Of a stretch of DNA of 23,321 nt, positions 3,966 through 23,321 are shown in pieces (positions within the stretch are counted from its first letter, which is position 1; the number at the start of each line of letters is the position of its first letter). A program made the position numbers and the translations under genes. Origin of the DNA: a virus; IMG/VR virus record IMGVR_UViG_3300025009_000371, positions 1 to 23,321 of that record; one strand, written 5' to 3'. The notes beneath the pieces were generated by a model, which made no database searches, was not told the DNA's origin, and saw nothing but the letters and a program-made list of their open reading frames with translations.

Positions 3966-4754
3966 CTACAGCCCCACCTGTTCGAACAACGGCAACACGT
4001 CCGGCTGACGATCCCCGGCAAAACCGTGATACCAGTTGTCGATAAGCTCTTCGGGCGTCTGGTCGAATCCCTTGGCGGCAACACGGCTAACCCACAGCTT
4101 GGTCATGGCTTTTTCGAAAGCCCGATATTGTTTCGGCCAGCGTTCGCGGTGACGGTCCACGTCTCGAGTATTTTCACGGCAGATGAGCGGACAAATTACG
4201 CAACCGATACGGTCGAAGCCTTGGTCGTAAAGTTCACAGTAGGGCAGGCCGCGGCGCTCGATGTAGTCCCATATCTCCCAACTCAACCAGTGAAAAATAG
4301 GCTTGTAGATGAACTGCTTAACCGGATGCTTGGTCATCTCGATGCGCTTACGTTTGGCCCGCGCCGCACTCTCTTCCGCACGAACGCCGACAAGACGGTG
4401 ACGGGGAAGGTGTTTCGTCGGATCCTTTTTGAGCTTGTCGCAGCACCAGCGCACCCAGCGCGTCGGGTAGCCTTTGTCCTGGATATAGGCGAAGAACGAT
4501 TTTTTTGGATGGCACCATAAAACGTCCGGATAATATTTCCTAATGAAACGGCAGACCTCCGGCGGGTCAATGCCCGTGGCGCTGTAAGTCGCAAGATGCG
4601 GAACGCCGGCGCGGCGGACGAGGTCAAGAAGAACGATGCTGTCCTTGCCGCCGCTAAAGCCGACTACCCAGCCGTCCGGCGGGCAAAACTCTTGAATGAA
4701 AGAGATAGCCTCCTCTTCAACGGTTTGGTTATTTAGTAAGCCGATGCGAATCAT
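3966..4754 (-). CDS. PP-loop ATPase, phage PAPS-reductase-like protein
   Basis: A 262-residue member of the adenine-nucleotide alpha-hydrolase superfamily. The PP-loop SGGKDS is at residues 34-39. WCCDKLKKDP (C104, C105) and GCVICPLIC (C185, C188, C192) are the conserved cysteines seen in PAPS-reductase-like and DndC-like proteins, where they can hold an iron-sulfur cluster. True PAPS reductases reduce activated sulfate; phage members often have unknown substrates, and sulfur insertion into DNA or RNA is another option. The start ATG (4752-4754) follows TGAGGAAC; an open frame continues upstream through a T-tract (coding FFFF) but has no ribosome-binding site. An intrinsic terminator sits just upstream. 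Confidence 0.85.
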   Translation of the reverse strand: MIRIGLLNNQTVEEEAISFIQEFCPPDGWVVGFSGGKDSIVLLDLVRRAGVPHLATYSATGIDPPEVCRFIRKYYPDVLWCHPKKSFFAYIQDKGYPTRWVRWCCDKLKKDPTKHLPRHRLVGVRAEESAARAKRKRIEMTKHPVKQFIYKPIFHWLSWEIWDYIERRGLPYCELYDQGFDRIGCVICPLICRENTRDVDRHRERWPKQYRAFEKAMTKLWVSRVAAKGFDQTPEELIDNWYHGFAGDRQPDVLPLFEQVGL

Positions 4755-4766
4755 TTGTTCCTCAGT

Positions 4767-4796
4767 AAAAAAAAAAAAATCAGCAGGTTCCCCTGC
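4767..4796 (-). terminator. Intrinsic terminator with T13 tract, directly before the PP-loop gene
   Basis: Read on the minus strand: a 5-bp stem GCAGG/CCTGC closed by a GGAA loop (4783-4796), three bases, then 13 consecutive T (plus strand A13 at 4767-4779). This is the layout of a rho-independent terminator. It ends 12 bases before the ATG of the PP-loop gene, so it would stop transcripts coming from the terminase-small-like gene unless antitermination occurs. The stem is short; the T tract is very strong. Confidence 0.55.
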
Positions 4797-5107
4797 GTAT
4801 ACCCATAGAGACACCTATGGTCCCCTATGCGCCCCTACCGTCTTGTGTGCACCCCACCGGGGGCGGGGGGGGGTGGGCGTAGAGAAAGACCGGGGGGGGT
4901 CTTCTTCTCCACCGAACCCAGGTCCGCGACCGGGCCGGCCGACCGCACCGGCCGAGAGATCGGCGCACCGACCAGGCAGGCGGGCCAGTCAATAGCCTGG
5001 ACATGGCGAGCAAGGTCGGCATGATGAAGATGAATACATGAATCGAGAATATACGTATCATATCCACCACTTACGCCATAATCGGCTATTAGTTTACATA
5101 ATACATG
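4797..5107. other. Gene-free GC-rich segment with long G/C homopolymers and inverted repeats
   Basis: No credible gene. An open minus-strand frame (4825-5070) turns into Arg/Pro-rich low-complexity text and lacks a good ribosome-binding site. The stretch holds an inverted repeat CCATAG/CTATGG (4803-4808, 4815-4820), four G runs on the plus strand of 5, 9, 3 and 8 bases (4859-4899), and a 6-bp inverted repeat AAGACC/GGTCTT around the last run. It separates the terminase-small-like gene from the rest of the packaging module. Confidence 0.6.
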
Positions 5108-6534: not shown

Positions 6535-6597
6535 CCCCTGACGGTATGACGAAAGACGGATTGCATCGGTTAGCGTTACATCCCGTGGGAACGAAAA

Positions 6598-6630
6598 GGC
6601 CCGCTCCCTCCGGCAAGAGGGAAACGGGCC
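6598..6630 (+). other. Two-tier hairpin in the leader of the AAA+ ATPase gene
   Basis: Outer arms GGCCCG (6598-6603) and CGGGCC (6625-6630); inner arms CCCTC (6606-6610) and GAGGG (6617-6621). The structure ends 47 bases before the AAA+ start codon. Read on the minus strand it is followed by TTTTCG, so it could also stop leftward transcripts. Confidence 0.4.
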
Positions 6631-6677
6631 GAGACGCTCCCCCCATCTTCAACCACGAAAAGAAAGGAGCTAATATT

Positions 6678-8009
6678 ATGAGTAGCACAAGCCCCGCGAC
6701 ATTCCCACAAAAAAAGTGTTTGTTTTCCGTGACCGGCCTACGTATCGACGACTGGACGGCCAGTGGAATAGAAGTCGGACAGGCCGGCATGATAATCGAT
6801 ATCGGGTTTAAGTATTTTGGAATCAAACAGTTAGCCGATAAGAGCATTCGGCCGGAATTCGAATTGGCGGTTCGGCGGTTCTTCCCTGGCTGGGAAGTCC
6901 CGGAGAAAACGGTATGGATGGGTAGCAGCAGAAAGAAAAAGGCCGGCAACGGCCAGCGTGACAGCGGGCAGGAACAGCAGAGAGAGGAACCCAAGCCCGA
7001 ACCCCGGCCAGAACCGGAACCTGAACCCCAGGAACCGCCCCAGGCGCCCCAGGAACCGGAGGACAACGGCAGGCATGACAGGCCGTGGGAACAGCGGGGA
7101 GAACCGGAGAGCATCCCGGAGAACATTCCGGAGAGATTGCCGGAACCGGAGGAACCCCGGGAAGCGCAGGAACCGGAGAGAGAAGAAGGCAAGGGCGAGC
7201 ATGACAGCGGGCGGGAACAGGAAAAACAGGAACCCAAGCCCGATGAAGAGGGCTATATCAAACCGAGTATTTACGCGGAATTCCGGGCGCTGGTCAAGGC
7301 GGGTATCAACGTTTTATTGTCCGGCCCGGCCGGTTGCGGCAAGAGCTACATGACCGAGAGAGTGGCCGAAGATTTGGAGATGGAATACACCTGTATCAGT
7401 CTTGGCGGCGGTATGCGCTATGCCCAGGTTATCGGCTCGACGCAGATCGTGGACGGCGATACGGTTTGGAAACCGGGCCCACTTATCGAAGCGATTCAAA
7501 AGCCCGGACTGGTCTTGCTCGACGAAATCTTCGGTTGCGATCCTGACGTGCTGTTGGGACTGAATTCCTTGACCGAACCCGGTTCGAGGAAAATCACGAC
7601 TCCGGGCGGAACATTCAAGGTTGACGAGGGTTGCCGGTTTGTGGCAGCGGCGAACACTGTTGGTAGGACGGTCAGCAGGCAATACACCGGCGCACAACGC
7701 ACGGACGACAGCGTGCTGTCTCGCTTCGCCGTAACGCTCCCCATGGATTACGACACCAGGGTTGAGGAACAATTGCTTGGTCGCATGGGCCTCAACGGCG
7801 AAAGGGCCTTGCTGATGGGCTGGGTACAATCCCTTCGCCGCAAAGTGAAAGACGCGAACATTCCCTTCGATCCTTGCACCAGGCGGGTCCTGGCCGCAGG
7901 GCGGGCGATCAAAGAGGCCGGGTTGAAACCGGAAAGGGCTTTCGAAATCACGTTTCTATCTATGTTGAGCGCGGCCGAACGGCAACGGGTCCACATGGAC
8001 AGCTATTAG
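6678..8009 (+). CDS. MoxR/CbbQ-type AAA+ ATPase with long Pro/Glu linker
   Basis: A 443-residue AAA+ protein. MoxR-type ATPases remodel or activate partner complexes, usually with a VWA-domain protein encoded next door. The N-terminal 80 residues form a small domain (FSVTGLRIDDW...GFKYFGIKQL), followed by a disordered Pro/Glu/Arg-rich linker (about 90-192). The ATPase core has Walker A GPAGCGKS (216-223), Walker B LVLLDE (278-283), sensor 1 AAANT (N326) and arginine finger SRF (R349). The ATG at 6678 is supported by AAAGGAGC; an upstream in-frame start would code through the leader hairpin. The next gene follows after 10 bases and is the probable partner. The closest relatives are phage CobS/MoxR-like proteins; the cellular target is unknown. 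Confidence 0.88.
   Translation: MSSTSPATFPQKKCLFSVTGLRIDDWTASGIEVGQAGMIIDIGFKYFGIKQLADKSIRPEFELAVRRFFPGWEVPEKTVWMGSSRKKKAGNGQRDSGQEQQREEPKPEPRPEPEPEPQEPPQAPQEPEDNGRHDRPWEQRGEPESIPENIPERLPEPEEPREAQEPEREEGKGEHDSGREQEKQEPKPDEEGYIKPSIYAEFRALVKAGINVLLSGPAGCGKSYMTERVAEDLEMEYTCISLGGGMRYAQVIGSTQIVDGDTVWKPGPLIEAIQKPGLVLLDEIFGCDPDVLLGLNSLTEPGSRKITTPGGTFKVDEGCRFVAAANTVGRTVSRQYTGAQRTDDSVLSRFAVTLPMDYDTRVEEQLLGRMGLNGERALLMGWVQSLRRKVKDANIPFDPCTRRVLAAGRAIKEAGLKPERAFEITFLSMLSAAERQRVHMDSY
6959..7243 (+). repeat. Imperfect 42-bp direct repeat inside the AAA+ linker
   Basis: Copies at 6959-7000 and 7202-7243 agree at 37 of 42 positions and both begin TGACAGCGGGC and end GGAACCCAAGCCCGA. They bracket the Pro/Glu-rich linker, whose interior also repeats GAACCGGAG several times. 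This suggests the linker grew by internal duplication and may vary in length between relatives. Confidence 0.75.
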
Positions 8010-10389: not shown

Positions 10390-10584
10390 ATGGCGGATAA
10401 AAAGCCCAAGAAGGATTTTACCTCGATTTCGATCCGGCTGGACAAGGAGACCTACATCGGCCTGGAAAAAGTGGCCCTGATGGAAAACAGAAAGATCGCC
10501 AACGTGGTCTACAACTTTTGTCGGGAAGGAATCGAAAAATACTGCGAGAAACTGAAAGGCCAATGCCCGGACGGGCAGAGGTAG
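10390..10584 (+). CDS. Probable ribbon-helix-helix DNA-binding protein (64 aa)
   Basis: A 64-residue basic protein. KDFTSISIRLDKETYIGLEK is the layout of the Arc/CopG/MetJ fold: a short strand (SISIRL) that would pair across a dimer and enter the DNA major groove, followed by two helices (ETYIGLEKVALMEN and IANVVYNFCREGIEKYCEKL). Such proteins are usually repressors or antitoxins. AAGGAGG precedes the ATG. It sits near the end of the operon, 20 bases before a strong terminator, and may autoregulate the operon; no operator was identified. Assignment is by pattern, not search. Confidence 0.72.
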   Translation: MADKKPKKDFTSISIRLDKETYIGLEKVALMENRKIANVVYNFCREGIEKYCEKLKGQCPDGQR

Positions 10585-12373: not shown

Positions 12374-12956
12374 TGGTTTTCGCCTCCTCCAAACGAACAA
12401 GTCGTGCTTGTTGTATGGGGTCTTTGATATCAGGCCAACATATGCGGCGAGATATATGCGATATTTGTGATGGTGACACATGGAATTGCTCCGCAACACT
12501 TTGTTGTGTTCGGCCTTGACTCAAGAGGAATCGAATATCGCAGACCTGTTTGGCTGTCAATTTGGCCGCAAAGGTATTATTCTTACAGGTCCGTCCGTGT
12601 TGACGTTGGTCTGTGATATTTTCTGCTCTTGTTCCCCACGCCAAATTATCAAGCCTATTATCTTCACTGTTGCCGTTCAAATGACGTGCTTCATGATGTT
12701 GGGGGCAGGGTCCAATAAACGTTTCCAAAACTAAACGGTGGACCAGTTTTTGGAAACACTTACCTTTATGATGCAACTGCACCACGCAATACCTGATCGC
12801 ATCTTGTTTGTTTCGTTTTGCTGTCCGAGTAACAAAAAGAGGCTTTATTTTAGACCCTATTCGTCCATGAGCACCTGGTATTTTGAGTGATACCACCTGT
12901 CCCTGGTTACTGATATAGTAACCGGGAAATGCAGGTATTTCTTTCCATTGTTCCAT
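12366..12956 (-). CDS. NUMOD4/HNH free-standing homing endonuclease
   Basis: A 196-residue protein. A NUMOD4 module opens it (EQWKEIPAFPGYYISNQGQV). The HNH region is HRLVLETFIGPCPQHHEA then HLNGNSEDNRLDNLAWGT, with the metal and general-base histidines and the asparagine in the expected order. A C-terminal helix-turn-helix is suggested by LTAKQVCDIRFLLSQGRT then SVAEQFHVSPSQISHI. Such enzymes nick or cut specific sites and spread their own genes, often beside nucleotide-metabolism genes. The frame is linked to ThyX by TAATG and to the glycosyltransferase by an 8-base overlap. GC content is visibly lower than its neighbours, which points to later insertion. Confidence 0.9.
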   Translation of the reverse strand: MEQWKEIPAFPGYYISNQGQVVSLKIPGAHGRIGSKIKPLFVTRTAKRNKQDAIRYCVVQLHHKGKCFQKLVHRLVLETFIGPCPQHHEARHLNGNSEDNRLDNLAWGTRAENITDQRQHGRTCKNNTFAAKLTAKQVCDIRFLLSQGRTQQSVAEQFHVSPSQISHISRRICWPDIKDPIQQARLVRLEEAKTND

Positions 12957-13627
12957 TATCGTTCCACCCCTTTGGGATGAATATTGTTGAAAAATTCGGG
13001 TAAACTGGTTTTTAGTTTAACCAGTAATGGAACCATAATTTCCCTGCATTGAGGGTGCGCCGCCTTCGAGCAACGCAGGTTGAGAATATGCCGCCATTCC
13101 CGCAGGTTGGCCGTGACGATGATCTCGGTTTTGAGGGAGTTGGGCAGGACGGCGCGGGCCTGCTGGGGGGACCAGCCCAGGTTTAACAGCTTCGAATACT
13201 CCCGTTCCGCCCGAAGCATACTGTTAACCCACCAGAACGACGGGTTATTGTCGTCCGGTAAAACCGCATCAACGGCGTAAAAATATTCCCCCGGCTCGAT
13301 GTCCACCCACGGCGGAATAACGAACGTCACCCCGCCCTTGTAGTTGCAAAAACGGGTAGATTCTTGACTGAACGAAGCCAACCGATGGCGCACCAACTCA
13401 TGGGACACGCCCCGGTCGCAGACGAAATGCACGGTCAAGTTGAAATGCTCGATCACGGAATGATGACCGTTCTCGATGATCTGGGAGACGAAACGGGAAG
13501 CCGTGTCCGGCCCGATTTTGTCCTCGCTTTTGTAGCAGACCCGGCCGATCCGCTCGATGAACATGGGAATCTTGTAGCTTTGTTCGAGGTCGGTCAGTAT
13601 CTCGAAAGACGGTTTTACCAGTCTCAT
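12956..13627 (-). CDS. thyX: Flavin-dependent thymidylate synthase ThyX
   Basis: A 223-residue enzyme that methylates dUMP to dTMP with methylene-tetrahydrofolate and reduced FAD, giving phages a thymidine supply independent of the host enzyme. The ThyX signature RHRLASFSQESTRF (residues 80-93) is intact, with the dUMP-binding serine. HHSVIEHFNLT (55-65) is the FAD/dUMP region and REWRHILNLRCSKAAHPQCR (about 176-195) the C-terminal helix motif. Length is typical (about 220-250). The start overlaps the MazG-like stop by ATGA, and the HNH gene starts at its stop, so these genes are coupled. Confidence 0.95.
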   Translation of the reverse strand: MRLVKPSFEILTDLEQSYKIPMFIERIGRVCYKSEDKIGPDTASRFVSQIIENGHHSVIEHFNLTVHFVCDRGVSHELVRHRLASFSQESTRFCNYKGGVTFVIPPWVDIEPGEYFYAVDAVLPDDNNPSFWWVNSMLRAEREYSKLLNLGWSPQQARAVLPNSLKTEIIVTANLREWRHILNLRCSKAAHPQCREIMVPLLVKLKTSLPEFFNNIHPKGVER

Positions 13628-14145
13628 TCGACACCTGCTTTCTTGACCGGCGGTTTCGGCCGGTCATCGAGTTCGGGGTGTGTGGAGGCGTATTCCAGGA
13701 GGGCGAAACACCACCAAGCCACATGGGCAAGGCTGGGGCCTTGGAAGACAGTGCCGTCAGGCAAAGTTTCCTCGTTCACATCCTTGCCGTTTCGCCAGTC
13801 CTGTAAATGTCGCATGATGGCGGCGTAGCAATCCATCCAGGGAACGCCCTTCTCCCAATTCCGAGGGGCGTATTTCTGAGCGCCCATGGTGTAGACCTTG
13901 GCCAGCGCTTCCAGGGGTTGCGGCGGAACCAGGTCGTAACGCAGTTTGCCTGCTTTTTGTTTCATGGCGCAGTCGGGGGCCTCGACAGAGGTTGACGGGT
14001 CCACCGGCGTCATAGATATCGGTCGCCACTTTTCACCAACAACACAGTCGATGATACATCCACCGCCTTCGGGCCGCGCCGTACCGCCAAAGTCACAGGT
14101 CTGGCACTTCTTGGTCAGAACATCGGGGGGGAGTTTTGACGCCAT
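13624..14145 (-). CDS. MazG-like dATP/dGTP pyrophosphohydrolase (DUF5664) with N-terminal zinc ribbon
   Basis: A 173-residue protein. The core KAGKLRYDLVPPQPLEALAK, then MGAQKYAPRNWEKGVPW, CYAAIMRHLQDW and LAHVAWWCFALLEY is the pattern of the DUF5664 family, all-alpha NTP pyrophosphohydrolases that remove dATP or dGTP; the 'GA.KY..RNWEKG' box is diagnostic. The first 40 residues add CQTCDF...GCIIDCVVG, probably a zinc ribbon not found in all members. The ATG at 14145 overlaps the RusA stop (TGATG) and has GGAGGTGA in front. In some phages such enzymes skew dNTP pools during base substitution; no purZ-like gene is in this window. Confidence 0.85.
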   Translation of the reverse strand: MASKLPPDVLTKKCQTCDFGGTARPEGGGCIIDCVVGEKWRPISMTPVDPSTSVEAPDCAMKQKAGKLRYDLVPPQPLEALAKVYTMGAQKYAPRNWEKGVPWMDCYAAIMRHLQDWRNGKDVNEETLPDGTVFQGPSLAHVAWWCFALLEYASTHPELDDRPKPPVKKAGVE

Positions 14146-14603
14146 CACCTCACCTCCCAGACCCGGACAAAAACCCCGGAATTTCCAAAGGTTTTCCGGA
14201 TGTGCTGTTCGATAATCTGGGAATCGTCCCGCCAGATAATCCCGGTCAAGGCGTCCTCAACCGCCCGGGTGATCTTGGTCGCGTCGGGCTTGATGATGTG
14301 ACAGGACGGCGCGGACGCCTTCAAAACATCGGCGTTCTTGCCGCCGCCGAAATGGCTTTTCGGCCGGGGAAACGCAAAGGTCAATTCCATGCCCACCGGG
14401 CCGGTCCAGGGCGTCTCCGGCTTGCATTGGACGGCGAAGGTTTTGACGTCGCCGCGCCAGTCCTGACCGGCCTTCCCGGAATCGTCCGAGATAATGGCCC
14501 GGCCGGTCTTTTTACTGAGACCGAAAAACCGCTTCGATCCGGCCGGTTTGGGTATGCCCGGCACAAAGAACTCAATCAATCCTGTTTTCTCTTCATTTTC
14601 CAA
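14145..14603 (-). CDS. rusA: RusA-type Holliday-junction resolvase
   Basis: A RusA-family endonuclease of about 152 residues that cuts four-way DNA junctions during phage recombination or packaging. The N-terminal strand IEFFVPGIPKPAGSKRFF and the C-terminal KPDATKITRAVEDALTGIIW-RDDSQI carry the catalytic aspartates (KPD, ED, DD) as in RusA, where the site is usually KPDxDN...DAL.G..W.DD. Here ATK replaces the common LDN, so activity may be altered. The TTG at 14601-14603 has GAGGTG six bases upstream; a GTG three codons earlier (14612) is an alternative without a matching site. The stop overlaps the next ATG by one base (TGATG). Confidence 0.88.
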   Translation of the reverse strand: MENEEKTGLIEFFVPGIPKPAGSKRFFGLSKKTGRAIISDDSGKAGQDWRGDVKTFAVQCKPETPWTGPVGMELTFAFPRPKSHFGGGKNADVLKASAPSCHIIKPDATKITRAVEDALTGIIWRDDSQIIEQHIRKTFGNSGVFVRVWEVR

Positions 14604-14700
14604 CGGTTGCACCTCTTTCTCTTCGTGGTTGATTTTAGGGGGCCTATAGACTGACCTACCCTCCGCGCTTGCCGTCGCGTGGCGGTCGAAAAAACCCGAT

Positions 14701-15313: not shown

Positions 15314-15411
15314 CTTTCTCTCCTGTCCATCGTGGTTGGGTTGGGGGATCGAGGGTGAGGCCGGCCGGCGGGAAGTCGTCCGGGTCCGGGTCCGGTTCGT
15401 ATCGCTACGTG

Positions 15412-15455
15412 GTAGTATGGGGCTGCGTAAGCCCATACTACTATATACGTAGTAT
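15412..15455 (-). promoter_or_regulatory. Mutually exclusive hairpins upstream of the 88-aa gene
   Basis: GTAGTATGGG (15412-15421) pairs with CCCATACTAC (15432-15441), extended by CT/AG over one bulged G. The same ATACTAC (15435-15441) also pairs with GTAGTAT (15449-15455). The two stems share an arm, so only one can form, as in attenuators, or three half-sites for a repressor. It lies about 100 bases upstream of the 88-aa gene and at the edge of the iteron field. Confidence 0.5.
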
Positions 15456-15469
15456 ATATATCGCTCTAG

Positions 15470-15907
15470 TGGAAACGTGTAACTTATTGATTTTATTGAC
15501 CGCCTCGTTTCCAAAACTCGATAAGTAAAATAAGTATAATCCATTGATTTTACTCACAGTTCCGTTTCCAGTTGACTGGAATCGGTTTTACTGGAAACGG
15601 GGTGGAAACGAAACGCTTAATAAAATCAACTACTTGAAAAATCGGTTTCCAGTCCCGTTTCCAGTGTGCGAACCAAACCTTAACATGCTGTTTTTGCTTG
15701 GCATTTTGCGATAAAATTATACTTATTTTGTTTTTGACAAGCAATGACTCACAAATGACTGGAATCGGGTGATACAAGCGCACTTGATCGATATTATTAT
15801 CAATCGAGGCTGAGCGACCGCTCAGTCGGTTCCAGTCGAACAGGGTGACTGGAAACGGATTCCATAATAATATCAATACCCCCGTTTTTCGGTTTAGGGG
15901 TGTTTCC
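15470..15907. repeat. Iteron field, candidate replication origin
   Basis: About eleven copies of an ACTGGAAACGG-type element occur on both strands. Exact 11-mers are at 15562-15572 (minus), 15590-15600 (plus), 15655-15665 (minus) and 15848-15858 (plus); one-mismatch copies are at 15575-15585, 15643-15653 and 15758-15768; shorter cores (TGGAAACG or related) are at 15470, 15506, 15603 and 15827. TTGATTTTA occurs three times (15487, 15544, and inverted at 15621). Inverted ATATTATTAT/ATAATAATAT arms (15791-15800, 15864-15873) flank a hairpin CTGAGC/GCTCAG (15810-15825). The block is AT-richer than its surroundings and lies directly beside the primase-helicase gene, the usual layout of an iteron origin. 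Confidence 0.7.
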
Positions 15908-15921
15908 ATGGCCGTTTTCAT
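15550..15921 (-). CDS. Doubtful open frame through the iteron field (123 aa)
   Basis: An ATG overlaps the primase stop by ATGA and opens a 123-codon frame beginning MKTAMETPLNRKTGVLILLW. The text is basic and Trp-rich, with repeated WK/WN units (FDWNRLSGR, AHWKRDWKPI, VNWKRNC) that simply mirror the repeated TGGAAAC elements. No good ribosome-binding site beyond the coupling with primase, and no recognisable family. The iterons explain the sequence better than coding does, but a coupled gene whose DNA doubles as the origin cannot be ruled out. Confidence 0.22.
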   Translation of the reverse strand: MKTAMETPLNRKTGVLILLWNPFPVTLFDWNRLSGRSASIDNNIDQVRLYHPIPVICESLLVKNKISIILSQNAKQKQHVKVWFAHWKRDWKPIFQVVDFIKRFVSTPFPVKPIPVNWKRNCE

Positions 15922-18050
15922 CGGTTTTCACCCTGGGCCTTGACCGCTCCTTTGGCTATTTTCTCTTCGGACCCGGCATAGATTTCCCCGCCCGGCACGT
16001 CCAGGAATTGGGGGATACTTCCGGTAAAAACGCATTGAGCTATGCGCCCTTCGGTTAACAATTCATCTATCAATTGCCATAAATGCCTTTTGGACAACGG
16101 TTGAAGCTCCGGACTCAAGACGTGCTTTAACGTAAAGACTCCGTTCGATCTGCCTGTTTTTGTATACGGTTTCTTTTCCGCCGCCGCCGCCGCAATATCC
16201 TGTACCAAAACACCTTTTAAAAGGTCGTTGGACATCTTCATCTCTTTGAGGATGTGATCGACCACTTCGAGTAAGCCATATTCGTTTCTGACCATGGTTT
16301 TAACGTCGCGGTCGGCCGGACCGTTCGATTTCACCACGGCTCCATGGAAAACCCTGTTGTATGACCAGGGCACACTCATATACCGGCAGACCGTCTTGGC
16401 CCGCTCCGCTTCCGTCGGCCAAAGCACGAAGGCGTTTCGCACCCCGTCCACCAAGGCCGTAGTTCCTCGAATCGCCGCCCGAGCCTGTTCCGGTCCTTTG
16501 ATCTCGTTTCCCTTGCCCGTCTTGCCCATGTGATGGCAGACCACAATGGCCGCGCCCGTCTCCGTAGCCAAAGCCGCCAGTTGACCGGTGACGAAAGCGC
16601 CCACCGCCGGGTCCGCGTTGACGTCGGCCATGATGAAGCTGGCCAGAGGGTCAACCACCACAAGTTTCAAGTCCGGAATCGCAACTAATTGGGCCTTGAG
16701 TTGCAAAAAATCGGGCGTCACGACCGGCTTGCCGTCCTTGCCCGCTTCCATCAAAGGAAATGTTCCTCCGGCGTTCGGTAGGGGCACGATCATCAGACGG
16801 TCGCCCGTGGTATACCGTCTCCCCCCGGGATCGATACCTTCGAGCCGCCTATGGACTTCCTCTTTATCGTCTTCGGCGGTCAGGATGACGGCCGACCCGA
16901 AAGTATGCAGCCAGTTCCCCAGAGATTGCGGCCACATATGAGGCGGGGTTTCATCCCAATACGTCGCCACCTTGAGAGCCAGGTCCAGGGTCAACATGCC
17001 CTTGCCGGCGTCGCCCATGGCGCAGAACAGGGTGACGGAGGCCATAGGGATAGTGTTGACCACCAGCCATTGGCGCTTCTGGGCCTTCCCCTGGAACGCC
17101 TTGTCGATGGTCCAATCGCACAGGCTCACCCCGCAGACGGTTTGTCGCCCGCTCCCCACAAATTTCAAAACTGCGAAACCTTCGGCTACCGCGTCGGCCG
17201 CGTCCCACTTAGGAGATTTTCCGGCCGGTATTTCCAGTGTTGAAACGGAGGTTGAGCGTCCCTGTAGGGCCTGGGCCACGTTGTGGGCATACTTCTGCCC
17301 GGCCGGATCATTGTCCGGCCAAATCACCACATCCTTGCCGACCAGCGGCGTCCAATCAGTCTTCTCGACCTTCGTATTGGATCCGCCCATGGCCGTGGTC
17401 GCCGGTATGCCCAAACCAATCAAGGCGTCGGCGCACTTTTCGCCTTCGACCAGGACAATGCGTTGAGCGCCCAGGATGCCGGGCTGGTTGTAGAGCGGCC
17501 TCGGGTCCGGCATGGCTGCCTTATGTCTTACGGCGTCCCAGGGCCGGAATTCCTTCTTGCCGTCCTCGGTGTCGAACCGTTGCACGGTGGCGATCACGTC
17601 GCCCTTGGCGTTCTTGTAAGTCCACGATCCGGCCGGCAAACCCGGAGCCGTCGGCGGGGTCTTGGGCGCCTGATAAGGCGTAGGAGCGTAACCGGCCGGC
17701 GGGGCCAGACTGAAAAACGTCTCGATGTCCTTGACCGCGGCGCGGAAGTCCTGACCTTTGGTTTTTTGCCAAAGGCTAATCAAATCGCCGCCTTCGCCGG
17801 ATTCGAAGTCCCGCCAGAGCCCGCGATATTCTCCCGACATGGTAATCTTGAGGGATTTCCCCGGCGTACCGCACACGTCCCCGACCTCGAAATGAGGGCC
17901 GTTGACCTTGCCGGCCGGGAAGAGGTAGCGCAGCACATCCTCTGTGCGAGACCTCAGTTCGTGCCTCAGTCGCTCGGTACGTTCCTCGGGGTTGAATTCC
18001 TCGATTTCCTCTTGAAGGGGAGCCTTGGCAAAAGATATAAGTTCGCCCAT
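15918..18050 (-). CDS. Phage primase-helicase (Toprim plus RepA-like ATPase)
   Basis: A 710-residue fusion that would make primers and unwind DNA at the phage origin. The N-terminal part (about 50-110) resembles a primase-type region without zinc cysteines (GEYRGLWRDFESGEGGDLIS). Toprim motifs are IVLVEGEKCADAL (198-210; E202) and WPDNDPAGQK (244-253; DxD). The C-terminal RecA/RepA-like helicase has a Walker A variant AMGDAGKGM (344-352), Walker B LKLVVVDPLASF (461-472) and the VCHHMGK motif (504-510). A final helical region may bind DNA. The ATG at 18050 abuts the stop of the zinc-ribbon gene (TAAATG). Its stop overlaps the iteron-field frame. Confidence 0.92.
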   Translation of the reverse strand: MGELISFAKAPLQEEIEEFNPEERTERLRHELRSRTEDVLRYLFPAGKVNGPHFEVGDVCGTPGKSLKITMSGEYRGLWRDFESGEGGDLISLWQKTKGQDFRAAVKDIETFFSLAPPAGYAPTPYQAPKTPPTAPGLPAGSWTYKNAKGDVIATVQRFDTEDGKKEFRPWDAVRHKAAMPDPRPLYNQPGILGAQRIVLVEGEKCADALIGLGIPATTAMGGSNTKVEKTDWTPLVGKDVVIWPDNDPAGQKYAHNVAQALQGRSTSVSTLEIPAGKSPKWDAADAVAEGFAVLKFVGSGRQTVCGVSLCDWTIDKAFQGKAQKRQWLVVNTIPMASVTLFCAMGDAGKGMLTLDLALKVATYWDETPPHMWPQSLGNWLHTFGSAVILTAEDDKEEVHRRLEGIDPGGRRYTTGDRLMIVPLPNAGGTFPLMEAGKDGKPVVTPDFLQLKAQLVAIPDLKLVVVDPLASFIMADVNADPAVGAFVTGQLAALATETGAAIVVCHHMGKTGKGNEIKGPEQARAAIRGTTALVDGVRNAFVLWPTEAERAKTVCRYMSVPWSYNRVFHGAVVKSNGPADRDVKTMVRNEYGLLEVVDHILKEMKMSNDLLKGVLVQDIAAAAAEKKPYTKTGRSNGVFTLKHVLSPELQPLSKRHLWQLIDELLTEGRIAQCVFTGSIPQFLDVPGGEIYAGSEEKIAKGAVKAQGENR

Positions 18051-18666: not shown

Positions 18667-19401
18667 TTACCTCCAGCAAATATCCTGGTAGTCGCAGTAG
18701 GTACACAGATAGAAATCGGACTGTTGGGCTACCCTGGGCAGCCACTCGCCCGCTTCGCTGGCTTGAATGATGTTGACCGCCCGGTCGCTCAACCGTTGGG
18801 CTTCGGCCGGGTCGAACGGAACCAGTTCTTCGTAAATATCCATGGTGTCGCTGTTGATCGCCGTGAACACGCCCGGATTGTCGGAGAGGTTCAGATAGGC
18901 TTGATAGAGCGCCATCTGGCCGCAGTATTCCGGGGCGCCCTTGAGCTTCTCTTTGGCAATCCTTTTCCAGGATTTCGAGCCCAGGGCCTTGCATTCCCAC
19001 AGCGCCGGATACTGGTAAATGGCCGGCCCGCCGACGAAAACACCGTCGCAGAATCCTTTCAGCTTCCCGCCGGCCACGGCGAAACCGAATTGCTTGCCGT
19101 ACTGATCGTGGGTCCGCAGGATAAACCCGGCCTTACGAAGCCACCCGGCCATCATATCCTCGAAGATATGGCCTCGTGCGAAGATGCGAAGGGTTTGACC
19201 GCTAAACGCGGACCCTTCGCCCTTCGAGGTCCGTAGATATTCGTATTGAATGGCCCTGACGCACTCATGGCCCAGGCGCGAAGCGCCTATGGCATGGTAG
19301 GTCTTGGGGGGCAATTTGGCGTTCTCGTTCTCGAGAGCCTGGTCAATGGCCCAGACCAGTTTTTCCCGGGTGGTCTGCCGGGCGAAGGACATGCCGGTCA
19401 T
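18667..19401 (-). CDS. PD-(D/E)XK exonuclease, Cas4/RecB-like, with iron-sulfur cysteines
   Basis: A 244-residue nuclease. The catalytic set is visible: H78 (RGHIFED), D119 (GFCDG), E136 and K138 (LWECK), and Q162 in YCGQMALYQAY. Cysteines C47 (GHECVRAIQYEY) and C233, C236 and C242 (CTYCDYQDIC) match the four-cysteine iron-sulfur arrangement of Cas4 and AddB-type nucleases. Phage members resect DNA ends for recombination or replication. It is not next to CRISPR genes. The ATG overlaps the stop of the DUF5131 gene (ATGA). A longer frame upstream is out of phase with the evidence for coupling. Confidence 0.9.
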   Translation of the reverse strand: MTGMSFARQTTREKLVWAIDQALENENAKLPPKTYHAIGASRLGHECVRAIQYEYLRTSKGEGSAFSGQTLRIFARGHIFEDMMAGWLRKAGFILRTHDQYGKQFGFAVAGGKLKGFCDGVFVGGPAIYQYPALWECKALGSKSWKRIAKEKLKGAPEYCGQMALYQAYLNLSDNPGVFTAINSDTMDIYEELVPFDPAEAQRLSDRAVNIIQASEAGEWLPRVAQQSDFYLCTYCDYQDICWR

Positions 19402-20480
19402 ATCGGCAACTCCCGGATGATCGGCACTCCGGCCGGAGCTTTCTTGACGAACACAGGGACACCCGCGGTTTGGCAGTCCTTGATGATTTCGTGGAACCAT
19501 CCTGTTTTCGCCGGGCGGGGTCGGGAACAACCGGTTTCTTGGCCAACGATAATCCAGTTCAACACCGGGACGTCCAATTCGCCAGAGCCGTCTCGATAAC
19601 TCTTCGTATTCAGCGGACTCCAGTTCGGCTCGCCCGTATTCTCAGGCCAGTACTTTGTCCTAAAGGCTATCGGGGACAGTATTGGTTCGATGCTGGCATA
19701 TAAAATCGCATGGGGTCCGATAAAATTACGTATGGTTCGCATATAACGAACACGTTCCTCATACGTATCCTGATTTTCCATCGTGCAACCCAGCCACACG
19801 TTTCCGGCCCCGGCCCGCGCCGGTCGTGAATAATATTTCATCCATTGGCAATCTTCGGCGAAACCCTCGTCATCGTATTTGTATTCATCCGCCACGCCGA
19901 TCGCTTCAAGGTCCTCACGGGTATCGGCTTGACTGGCCACGGGGCACTCACGGTAATCGCATTCCTCACCGGTTATTTGGCAGACGATTTCAACGTCGGG
20001 GTGGGCCTCATAATCGGCATCCACATACCCGCACTCATCCCGCATCAAAATATCATCATAGTGTCGATAACCGCCGAGCTTAATAAAATGAGAGCTTCGC
20101 TCGGTCCAGCCGAATTCGCGTCGATATGCCCGTTCTCTGATATATTCCAACATCCGTTCCGGCCGTTTGGTTAAAACCATGAAAATATGTTGAGGGTTTG
20201 CCCACATAACGTCCCATACCTGGTCGATGAAATCGAAAGGCACGTCTTCATGGAATATATCGTTCCAGATGCTCCACGCCTGCGGTTTTTTGGCGTTAAA
20301 TTGTTTGATTCGTTCGAGATGGGTTATAATATTGCCATTGAAAGGCCAAGGCTGGTTTCCGAACCTCTCAGCCATGGCTTCAGACCAGCAGTTACGACAA
20401 CCCGGGGAGACATGGGTGCAGCCGCCGATCAATGTCGCCCCACGATCCCAATACATGCCCTTATCTATTCGGTCAAACAT
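19398..20480 (-). CDS. DUF5131 (phage Gp37/Gp68) family protein with acidic cysteine insert
   Basis: A 360-residue member of the family annotated as phage Gp37/Gp68. The start has the family's cysteine motif GCTHVSPGCRNCW (C21, C28, C31), then WSIWNDIFHEDVPFDFIDQV, VLTKRPERML, NVWLGCTMENQ and WIIVGQETGCSRPRP, in the normal order. A TIM-barrel-like fold with an iron-sulfur or metal site has been suggested for such families; the reaction is unknown. An insert of about 90 residues after the KRPERM region is acidic and adds several cysteines (MRDECGYVDAD, IVCQITGEECDYRECPV). TGATG joins it to the upstream gene. Confidence 0.85.
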   Translation of the reverse strand: MFDRIDKGMYWDRGATLIGGCTHVSPGCRNCWSEAMAERFGNQPWPFNGNIITHLERIKQFNAKKPQAWSIWNDIFHEDVPFDFIDQVWDVMWANPQHIFMVLTKRPERMLEYIRERAYRREFGWTERSSHFIKLGGYRHYDDILMRDECGYVDADYEAHPDVEIVCQITGEECDYRECPVASQADTREDLEAIGVADEYKYDDEGFAEDCQWMKYYSRPARAGAGNVWLGCTMENQDTYEERVRYMRTIRNFIGPHAILYASIEPILSPIAFRTKYWPENTGEPNWSPLNTKSYRDGSGELDVPVLNWIIVGQETGCSRPRPAKTGWFHEIIKDCQTAGVPVFVKKAPAGVPIIRELPI

Positions 20481-23086: not shown

Positions 23087-23321
23087 TTATTTTTGTGTCG
23101 CCATGACGACGGTAGGCGGTTGGTCGGCGTCCCGCAGAATGACCACGGCATAGTCGTTGATTGATGCGGGCGCCTTTTGGTTCCGAACAATTATCGTGGC
23201 CGAGCCCCGCACGTTCTGGATGACGGCCGAGTCCCACACGTTCTTGATGACGGCCGAGCCCCCCACGTTCTGGATGACGGCCGAGTCCCGCACGTTCTGG
23301 ATGGTGGCCGAGTCCCGCACG
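23087..23321 (-). CDS. Nonapeptide-repeat, predicted beta-solenoid protein; 5' end missing (window edge)
   Basis: The visible 78 codons encode tandem nine-residue units of the form V-[RGW]-[DG]-S-A-[TV]-I-[QK]-N (RDSATIQN, RDSAVIQN, GGSAVIKN, WDSAVIQN, RGSATIIV), then a non-repeat tail ending DADQPPTVVMATQK. Regular alternation of small and branched residues suggests a beta-helix or solenoid stack. Relatives occur in phages and gut bacteria without known function. The gene continues beyond the right edge, so its length and start are unknown. It lies 10 bases upstream of the basic 54-aa gene. Confidence 0.75.
   Translation of the reverse strand, partial: VRDSATIQNVRDSAVIQNVGGSAVIKNVWDSAVIQNVRGSATIIVRNQKAPASINDYAVVILRDADQPPTVVMATQK
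23199..23321 (-). repeat. 27-bp tandem repeat coding the nonapeptide array
   Basis: Four complete 27-base units (23199-23225, 23226-23252, 23253-23279, 23280-23306) and a 15-base start of a fifth, each beginning GCCGAG on the plus strand and containing CACGTTCT. They keep the reading frame and differ at a few positions. The array continues past the window edge and may change copy number by slippage or recombination. Confidence 0.9.

Follow-up and report, generated by a model that had tools for sequence, protein, structure and literature searches.

A candidate replication origin beside the gene of a RepA-like primase-helicase in tailed phages

Few environmental phages have a known replication origin. 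In the DNA analysed here, a 23,321-base virus record to which we refer as the window, a dense group of short repeats adjoins the gene of a primase-helicase, which raises the question of whether these repeats form a phage replication origin and, if so, which protein would recognise them. An initial annotation had read them as either an iteron origin or a dense repressor operator. The window derives from a tailed phage and also encodes terminase, portal, ThyX, RusA, and a Cas4-type exonuclease. It further contains a PAPS-reductase-like gene between the terminase subunits (3969-4814, - strand), an ATPase (6546-8006, +; PHROG ‘porphyrin biosynthesis’) whose N-terminal half carries a long charged, proline-rich low-complexity stretch, and, at the record end, a tandem-repeat frame of DSAVIQNVR-like units (23087-23320, -).

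Elements and hairpins beside the gene

A region of low GC runs from ~15412 to 10 bases short of where the primase-helicase gene ends. It includes, at 15468-15908, an array in which both strands carry ACTGGAAACGG-like elements, ~11 in all and four of them exact. The elements start at 15468+, 15505-, 15562-, 15575+, 15590+, 15601+, 15643-, 15655-, 15758+, 15826-, and 15848+. This count reproduces that of the initial annotation; the total of eleven includes three-mismatch copies that keep a GGAAACG core (15505- and 15601+). When ACTGGAAACGG was scored against the whole record, all four exact copies lay inside the region and none outside. With up to one mismatch, seven copies were found inside, all within 15562-15858, and again none outside; with up to two, nine were inside and five outside, the outside density predicting 0.1 inside. 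The core CGTTTCCA occurs seven times in the region and never more than three times in 500 dinucleotide shuffles of the same bases. By both measures, which had been proposed as checks, the element is not frequent elsewhere and its clustering is beyond chance.

The inverted pair of elements at 15562-15585 (both strands, 2-base spacer) and the direct pair on the - strand at 15643-15665 (12 bases from start to start, 15643 and 15655) are as the initial annotation had described them. The second repeated motif that it mentioned is also real: TTGATTTTA stands at a fixed distance from an element in four composites of the form TTGATWTTA-N10-(C/G)GTTTCCA, with identical spacing (15487+, 15544+, 15629-, and 15876-). 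The first composite, TTGATTTTA-N10-CGTTTCCA, occupies 15487-15513 (+), the second 15544-15570 (+), the third 15603-15629 (-), and the fourth (TTGATATTA) 15850-15876 (-). Many 50-base windows within 15425-15775 are 60-72% AT, against ~41-48% in the surrounding genes, and the AT-rich inverted arms that had been reported around a hairpin were located at 15788-15804 and 15861-15877, on either side of a perfect palindrome read from the sequence, CTGAGCG-AC-CGCTCAG (15810-15825). As in iteron origins, multiple copies of a short element are clustered at one place, next to AT-rich DNA. The region contains no clear DnaA box (one site has a single mismatch), the exact dyad pattern had no match in viral contigs, and a tRNA scan was empty. 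Cumulative GC skew, suggested as a further check, gave no origin signal in the window or in Rhizobium phage RHph_Y3_1 and was uninformative.

The IHF consensus WATCAANNNNTTR is matched exactly at three places in the region and at only two others in the window, all by motif match only. Those in the region are AATCAATAAGTTA at 15480-15492 (-; TAACTTATTGATT on the + strand), AATCAATGGATTA at 15537-15549 (-), and AATCAACTACTTG at 15624-15636 (+); the composites at 15487 and 15544 also fit the consensus, and the third exact match is the one at 15624. Across the family, IHF-core sites reach 2.96 per kb in the arrays, compared with 0.15 elsewhere and 0.24 in AT-matched windows (20-fold and 12-fold enrichments, respectively), and within the arrays they are often spaced ~66 bases apart.

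In addition to what had been annotated, the region extends to the left into two tandem hairpins (15412-15458). The first, TATATAC-TAC-GTATATA (15442-15458, -), and the second (15412-15441, -) make up a terminal double palindrome; the DNA fold z-score for 15395-15475 is -3.9, the hairpins being more stable than shuffles, and ATACTACGTATAT of the first hairpin is also present in two relatives, L092 and L205. Beyond the array of most loci, a short palindrome overlaps a longer hairpin, so that the middle strand can pair with either side. Among 27 loci, this double palindrome lies 160-470 bases after the gene, differing in sequence from locus to locus and recurring in architecture. A tandem hairpin pair was found in 23 of the 27, and none of 162 shuffles reached its score; as the 27 loci include many near relatives, ~12 independent forms support the double palindrome; for the window and for L172, the pair with the best score is not clearly an overlapping one. 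By analogy with RSF1010, our guess is that the double palindrome could be a single-strand priming site.

The primase-helicase and its relatives

The gene adjoining the array (15918-18050, -) encodes a primase-helicase of 710 aa, the proposed initiator, which was characterised with Pfam/PHROG, PDB, AlphaFold2, and Foldseek. It is composed of a Toprim primase, an AAA_25 RepA-like helicase, and a C-terminal predicted winged helix. The family profile matched RSF1010 RepA in the PDB (1g8y, E 4.5e-20), and Foldseek with the AlphaFold2 model (pLDDT 82) retrieved T7 gp4 (E 3e-18) and RepA (TMt 0.77). In this model, the last 110 residues follow the order helix-helix-strand-wing-strand, and this secondary structure, together with the covariation described below, supports a predicted winged-helix domain at aa 596-702 (15945-16265, -), the proposed reader of the elements. 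With the C-terminal domain alone, the proteins listed by Foldseek were mostly winged-helix proteins, with weak E-values (best 0.04), and for this reason the C-terminal winged helix is a prediction.

A nucleotide search of phages returned a short primase match only. The first relatives collected (L001-L080) have only the primase half in common, and AcaML1, tested among them, has a D5-type helicase and a different element. Because k-mer statistics were uninformative among these primase-half relatives, a helicase-only alignment served as query, and the resulting profile identified 80 viral loci matching across the helicase and the C-terminal domain, with further matches in a Magnetococcales contig, RHph_Y3_1, an Azospirillum plasmid, and the Agarilytica plasmid pSU2. 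The last of these (L173, from Agarilytica rhodophyticola) is a 71-kb plasmid with the primase-helicase, an array, and a RuvC-like gene, and is possibly a phage-plasmid.

In nearly all non-marine relatives, the most repeat-rich window of the locus is the 350 bases directly 3′ of the gene. GTTNCC cores number 5-15 per 420 bases 3′ of the gene in 22 of 39 representatives, against ~0.9 per 420 bases elsewhere, and occur in both orientations in all but one of these 22. Each phage has one main letter at N of its CGTTNCC elements, which is T in the window and C or G in the others. For RHph_Y3_1, the deposited genome is complete and the host is named; eight of its nine CGTTCCCA copies fall in the gap matching the window array (array at 12934-13239), and the same gap is the top repeat window genome-wide. 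No origin is annotated in its record, and it provides an unannotated example of the arrangement. The window encodes a RusA-like Holliday-junction resolvase (14145-14612, -), a RuvC-like resolvase comes next after the array in many relatives, and the Cas4-domain exonuclease (18667-19530, -) has a conserved place in relatives, ~2.9 kb ahead of the point where the primase-helicase gene ends.

A marine clade (L215-L255) serves as an internal control, as it has the helicase, a divergent C-terminal domain, and no array; in these phages, the origin must be at a different site or of a different kind. Among the Wolbachia WO relatives, L088 and L175 have no clear array, and the few GTTCCTA-like copies in L091 fall short of significance by k-mer test. 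The AcaML1-type phages combine the same primase region with a D5/DUF5906 helicase and carry TGACGG dyads at the same place; on this comparison, element type follows the C-terminal half of the protein. A long dyad, GAGTGACGGATTTGACGGG...CCCGTCGCATCCGTCACTC, was observed at most ~200 bases after the primase gene in L115, L125, L039, L161, and others, with an alternating purine-pyrimidine centre and then a RuvC-like gene, and is probably the equivalent origin of the D5-helicase phages.

The relation between protein tail and element letter was analysed in 12 close relatives, eight with GTTGCC and four with GTTCCC. Loci with the same letter and loci with different letters have helicase identities of 90.6 and 90.9%, and winged-helix identities of 86.4 and 69.7%, respectively. 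Among the 495 labelings of four loci, only the observed one reaches a difference in winged-helix identity that large. Alignment columns separating all G from all C loci make up 9 of ~100 in the winged helix and 5 of ~580 outside it. A letter-residue mutual-information scan over all classes is confounded by relatedness and served as a pointer only.

L188 (GTTGCC) and L207 (GTTCCC) are 95-100% identical over aa 301-633 and 69% identical over aa 634-700, and their DNA identity drops ~225 bases before the stop and recovers after the array. L188 and L190, both GTTGCC, are 88-98% identical over the final 200 bases of the gene, and the resemblance runs through the array. Judged by its sequence, L188 is a natural block exchange of gene tail and array. 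As tail and array adjoin, co-transfer (hitch-hiking) alone could yield part of the linkage. L205, a single case, argues against co-transfer alone: its array is C-type and its winged helix partly G-like, with six G-like residues, four of its own, and five C-type residues at the 15 type-separating positions. Among the five are the C-type residues N, E, E, and L at two recognition-helix positions (655 and 658, at the start of the helix) and two wing positions (676 and one next to 680).

The proposed origin and its alternatives

Taken together, we consider it likely that the region is a phage replication origin and, with marginally less assurance, that this origin is recognised by the winged helix of the primase-helicase itself. 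In the mechanism that we propose, the primase-helicase from the adjoining gene would use its C-terminal winged helix to bind the ACTGGAAACGG (CCGTTTCCAGT) elements, and IHF would probably bend the DNA between the element groups. Opening of the AT-rich stretches would then expose strands onto which the attached RepA-like helicase would be placed directly, and synthesis would be started by the Toprim primase. At the far end, the double palindrome may act as a single-strand priming or structural site. We infer protein-DNA binding, strand opening, helicase loading, and origin activity from these patterns, and IHF binding and the roles of IHF and of the double palindrome at the level of motifs.

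It is unlikely that the array is instead a dense operator at which a phage repressor, or the primase-helicase itself, regulates the resolvase and nucleotide-metabolism genes downstream. Such an operator would fit the position of the array between co-oriented genes and the mixed-orientation dyads, which suit dimeric regulators, and Arc-like and HTH proteins are encoded in the window. However, a promoter scan of the region showed no excess of promoters, neither of the window proteins encoded immediately ahead of the primase-helicase (one being the HTH protein) was found in relatives, and the type of element varies together with the winged helix of the primase-helicase. Of the two readings first put forward, the origin has gained support and the operator is the weaker, because no family-shared regulator was found and the primase-helicase beside the array, a family-shared protein, has a predicted, covarying DNA-binding domain; autoregulation at an origin would be compatible with origin function. 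The Arc-like protein (10390-10581) and the HTH proteins of the window were considered as binders and rejected, as nothing links them to the array; the HTH proteins are not shared with the relatives. Quite improbable is a structured RNA, in which hairpins of the primase transcript would form an attenuator or processing site before the resolvase gene and the double palindrome a switch. Overlapping, mutually exclusive stems do recur with different sequences, and the stability of the window hairpins exceeds that of shuffles, but no Rfam family was found, no terminator-like T-run is listed after the hairpin pair, and an RNA leaves the covariation of CGTTNCC letter and domain, the direct pairs, and the IHF-like sites unexplained.

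Very little probability attaches to a partition, attachment (att arm sites), or packaging site. Iteron-like and arm-type sites resemble each other, and IHF sites occur in attP; nevertheless, the att sites annotated in RHph_Y3_1 are at 4414 and 35153 and its array at 12934-13239, no integrase or partition gene is among the window proteins scanned, the terminase is more than 10 kb away, and the conserved neighbour is the primase-helicase. A 123-aa open frame across the array (15550-15921, -) was judged not to be a gene, and we give next to no credence to its being a real one with the repeats as coding repeats, even though an ATGA overlap joins it to the end of the primase-helicase gene. Its GC by codon position is flat and low (0.44/0.35/0.48, against a GC3 of 0.69-0.74 in four neighbouring genes), no family match was found, and the elements are on both strands, some of them outside the frame (15468-15549). 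The comparison with relatives, by which the initial annotation would have its proposal judged, showed the elements to be conserved and the open frame to be without a relative.

Returning to the origin, we lean towards the broader view that it represents a widespread phage replicon family, in which a primase-helicase of the T7-gp4/RSF1010-RepA class has its own origin-reading winged helix and would serve as initiator, helicase, and primase in one protein. Specificity would change by joint swaps of gene tail and array or by changes at a small number of residues in the recognition helix and wing; the end of each origin would be formed by a double palindrome, variable in sequence and recurrent in its three-strand architecture. 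No description of this family’s origin was found in the literature searched, which covered few subscription journals and argues only weakly for novelty. As the window is a fragment of 23 kb, there may be other origins or a role in transcription. As a rule, CGTTNCC-like elements in both orientations 3′ of a RepA-type primase-helicase gene mark a candidate origin, and they do so in phages, in prophages, and in one plasmid. Initiator-origin recognition becomes directly testable with the near-identical natural variants, whose winged helix and array differ.

Comparison with known replicons

The oriV of RSF1010 depends on three separate proteins (RepA helicase, RepB′ primase, and RepC) and has 20-bp direct iterons. 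The helicase described here is related to RepA in both sequence and fold and belongs, as in IncQ, to the RepA-family hexameric helicases, and iterons, AT-rich DNA, and hairpins are similarly laid out. Unlike in RSF1010, the primase, the helicase, and the presumed origin reader are fused in one protein, with no Pfam RepC match and no separate RepC and RepB′; because the functions are fused, this is not an IncQ replicon.

The P4 alpha protein is a single primase-helicase polypeptide whose C-terminal part binds short repeats in both orientations, as we propose for the protein in the window, although the helicase and primase families differ; the ori and crr of P4 are kilobases apart. P4 alpha and the Pri-Rep initiators of PICI/SaPI have an SF3-class helicase, whereas the helicase here is of the AAA_25/RepA class, and because of this difference in helicase class we claim no membership in the PICI/SaPI or pRN1 families. 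In the PICI/SaPI pri-rep-ori, iteron sets surround an AT-rich stretch and the initiator is a cognate primase/replicase; the pri-rep-ori region of the E. coli PICI EcCICFT073 was tested for driving plasmid maintenance, and the P4 replicon is mentioned alongside (PMC6092414). Our loci share with these elements the layout and logic of an iteron replicon with its origin by the primase-helicase gene. They differ in their RepA/T7-gp4-like helicase and Toprim primase, in their scattered dyads and direct pairs, IHF-like sites, and terminal double palindrome, and in belonging to tailed phages, not satellites.

The origin of the archaeal plasmid pRN1 is directly 3′ of a primase-helicase gene that encodes an SF3 helicase and an archaeo-eukaryotic primase. 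A single stem-loop of this origin is required, and the sequence of the structure varies between relatives (PMC4234260). The position and the sequence-variable structure are alike in the phage loci, which have an iteron array and not a single stem-loop. The AcaML1-type loci (L090, L115, L125, and others) have a homologous N-terminal primase region, with repeat dyads right after the gene and then a RuvC-like gene; their D5_N/DUF5906 helicase and TGACGG element differ together, which is what recognition of the element by the C-terminal half would predict.

Finally, in PLE, the DNA-binding domain of RepA and the origin repeats swap together between relatives, a covariation that replication assays proved to reflect initiator-origin pairing; the initiator is of the RepA_N type, the iterons are three semi-palindromic repeats of ~30 bp, and the origin lies in a separate noncoding region (PMC8263062). 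As in PLE, the predicted DNA-binding domain and the repeats change together in the phages described here, with a proposed initiator of another kind and a candidate origin that adjoins its gene.
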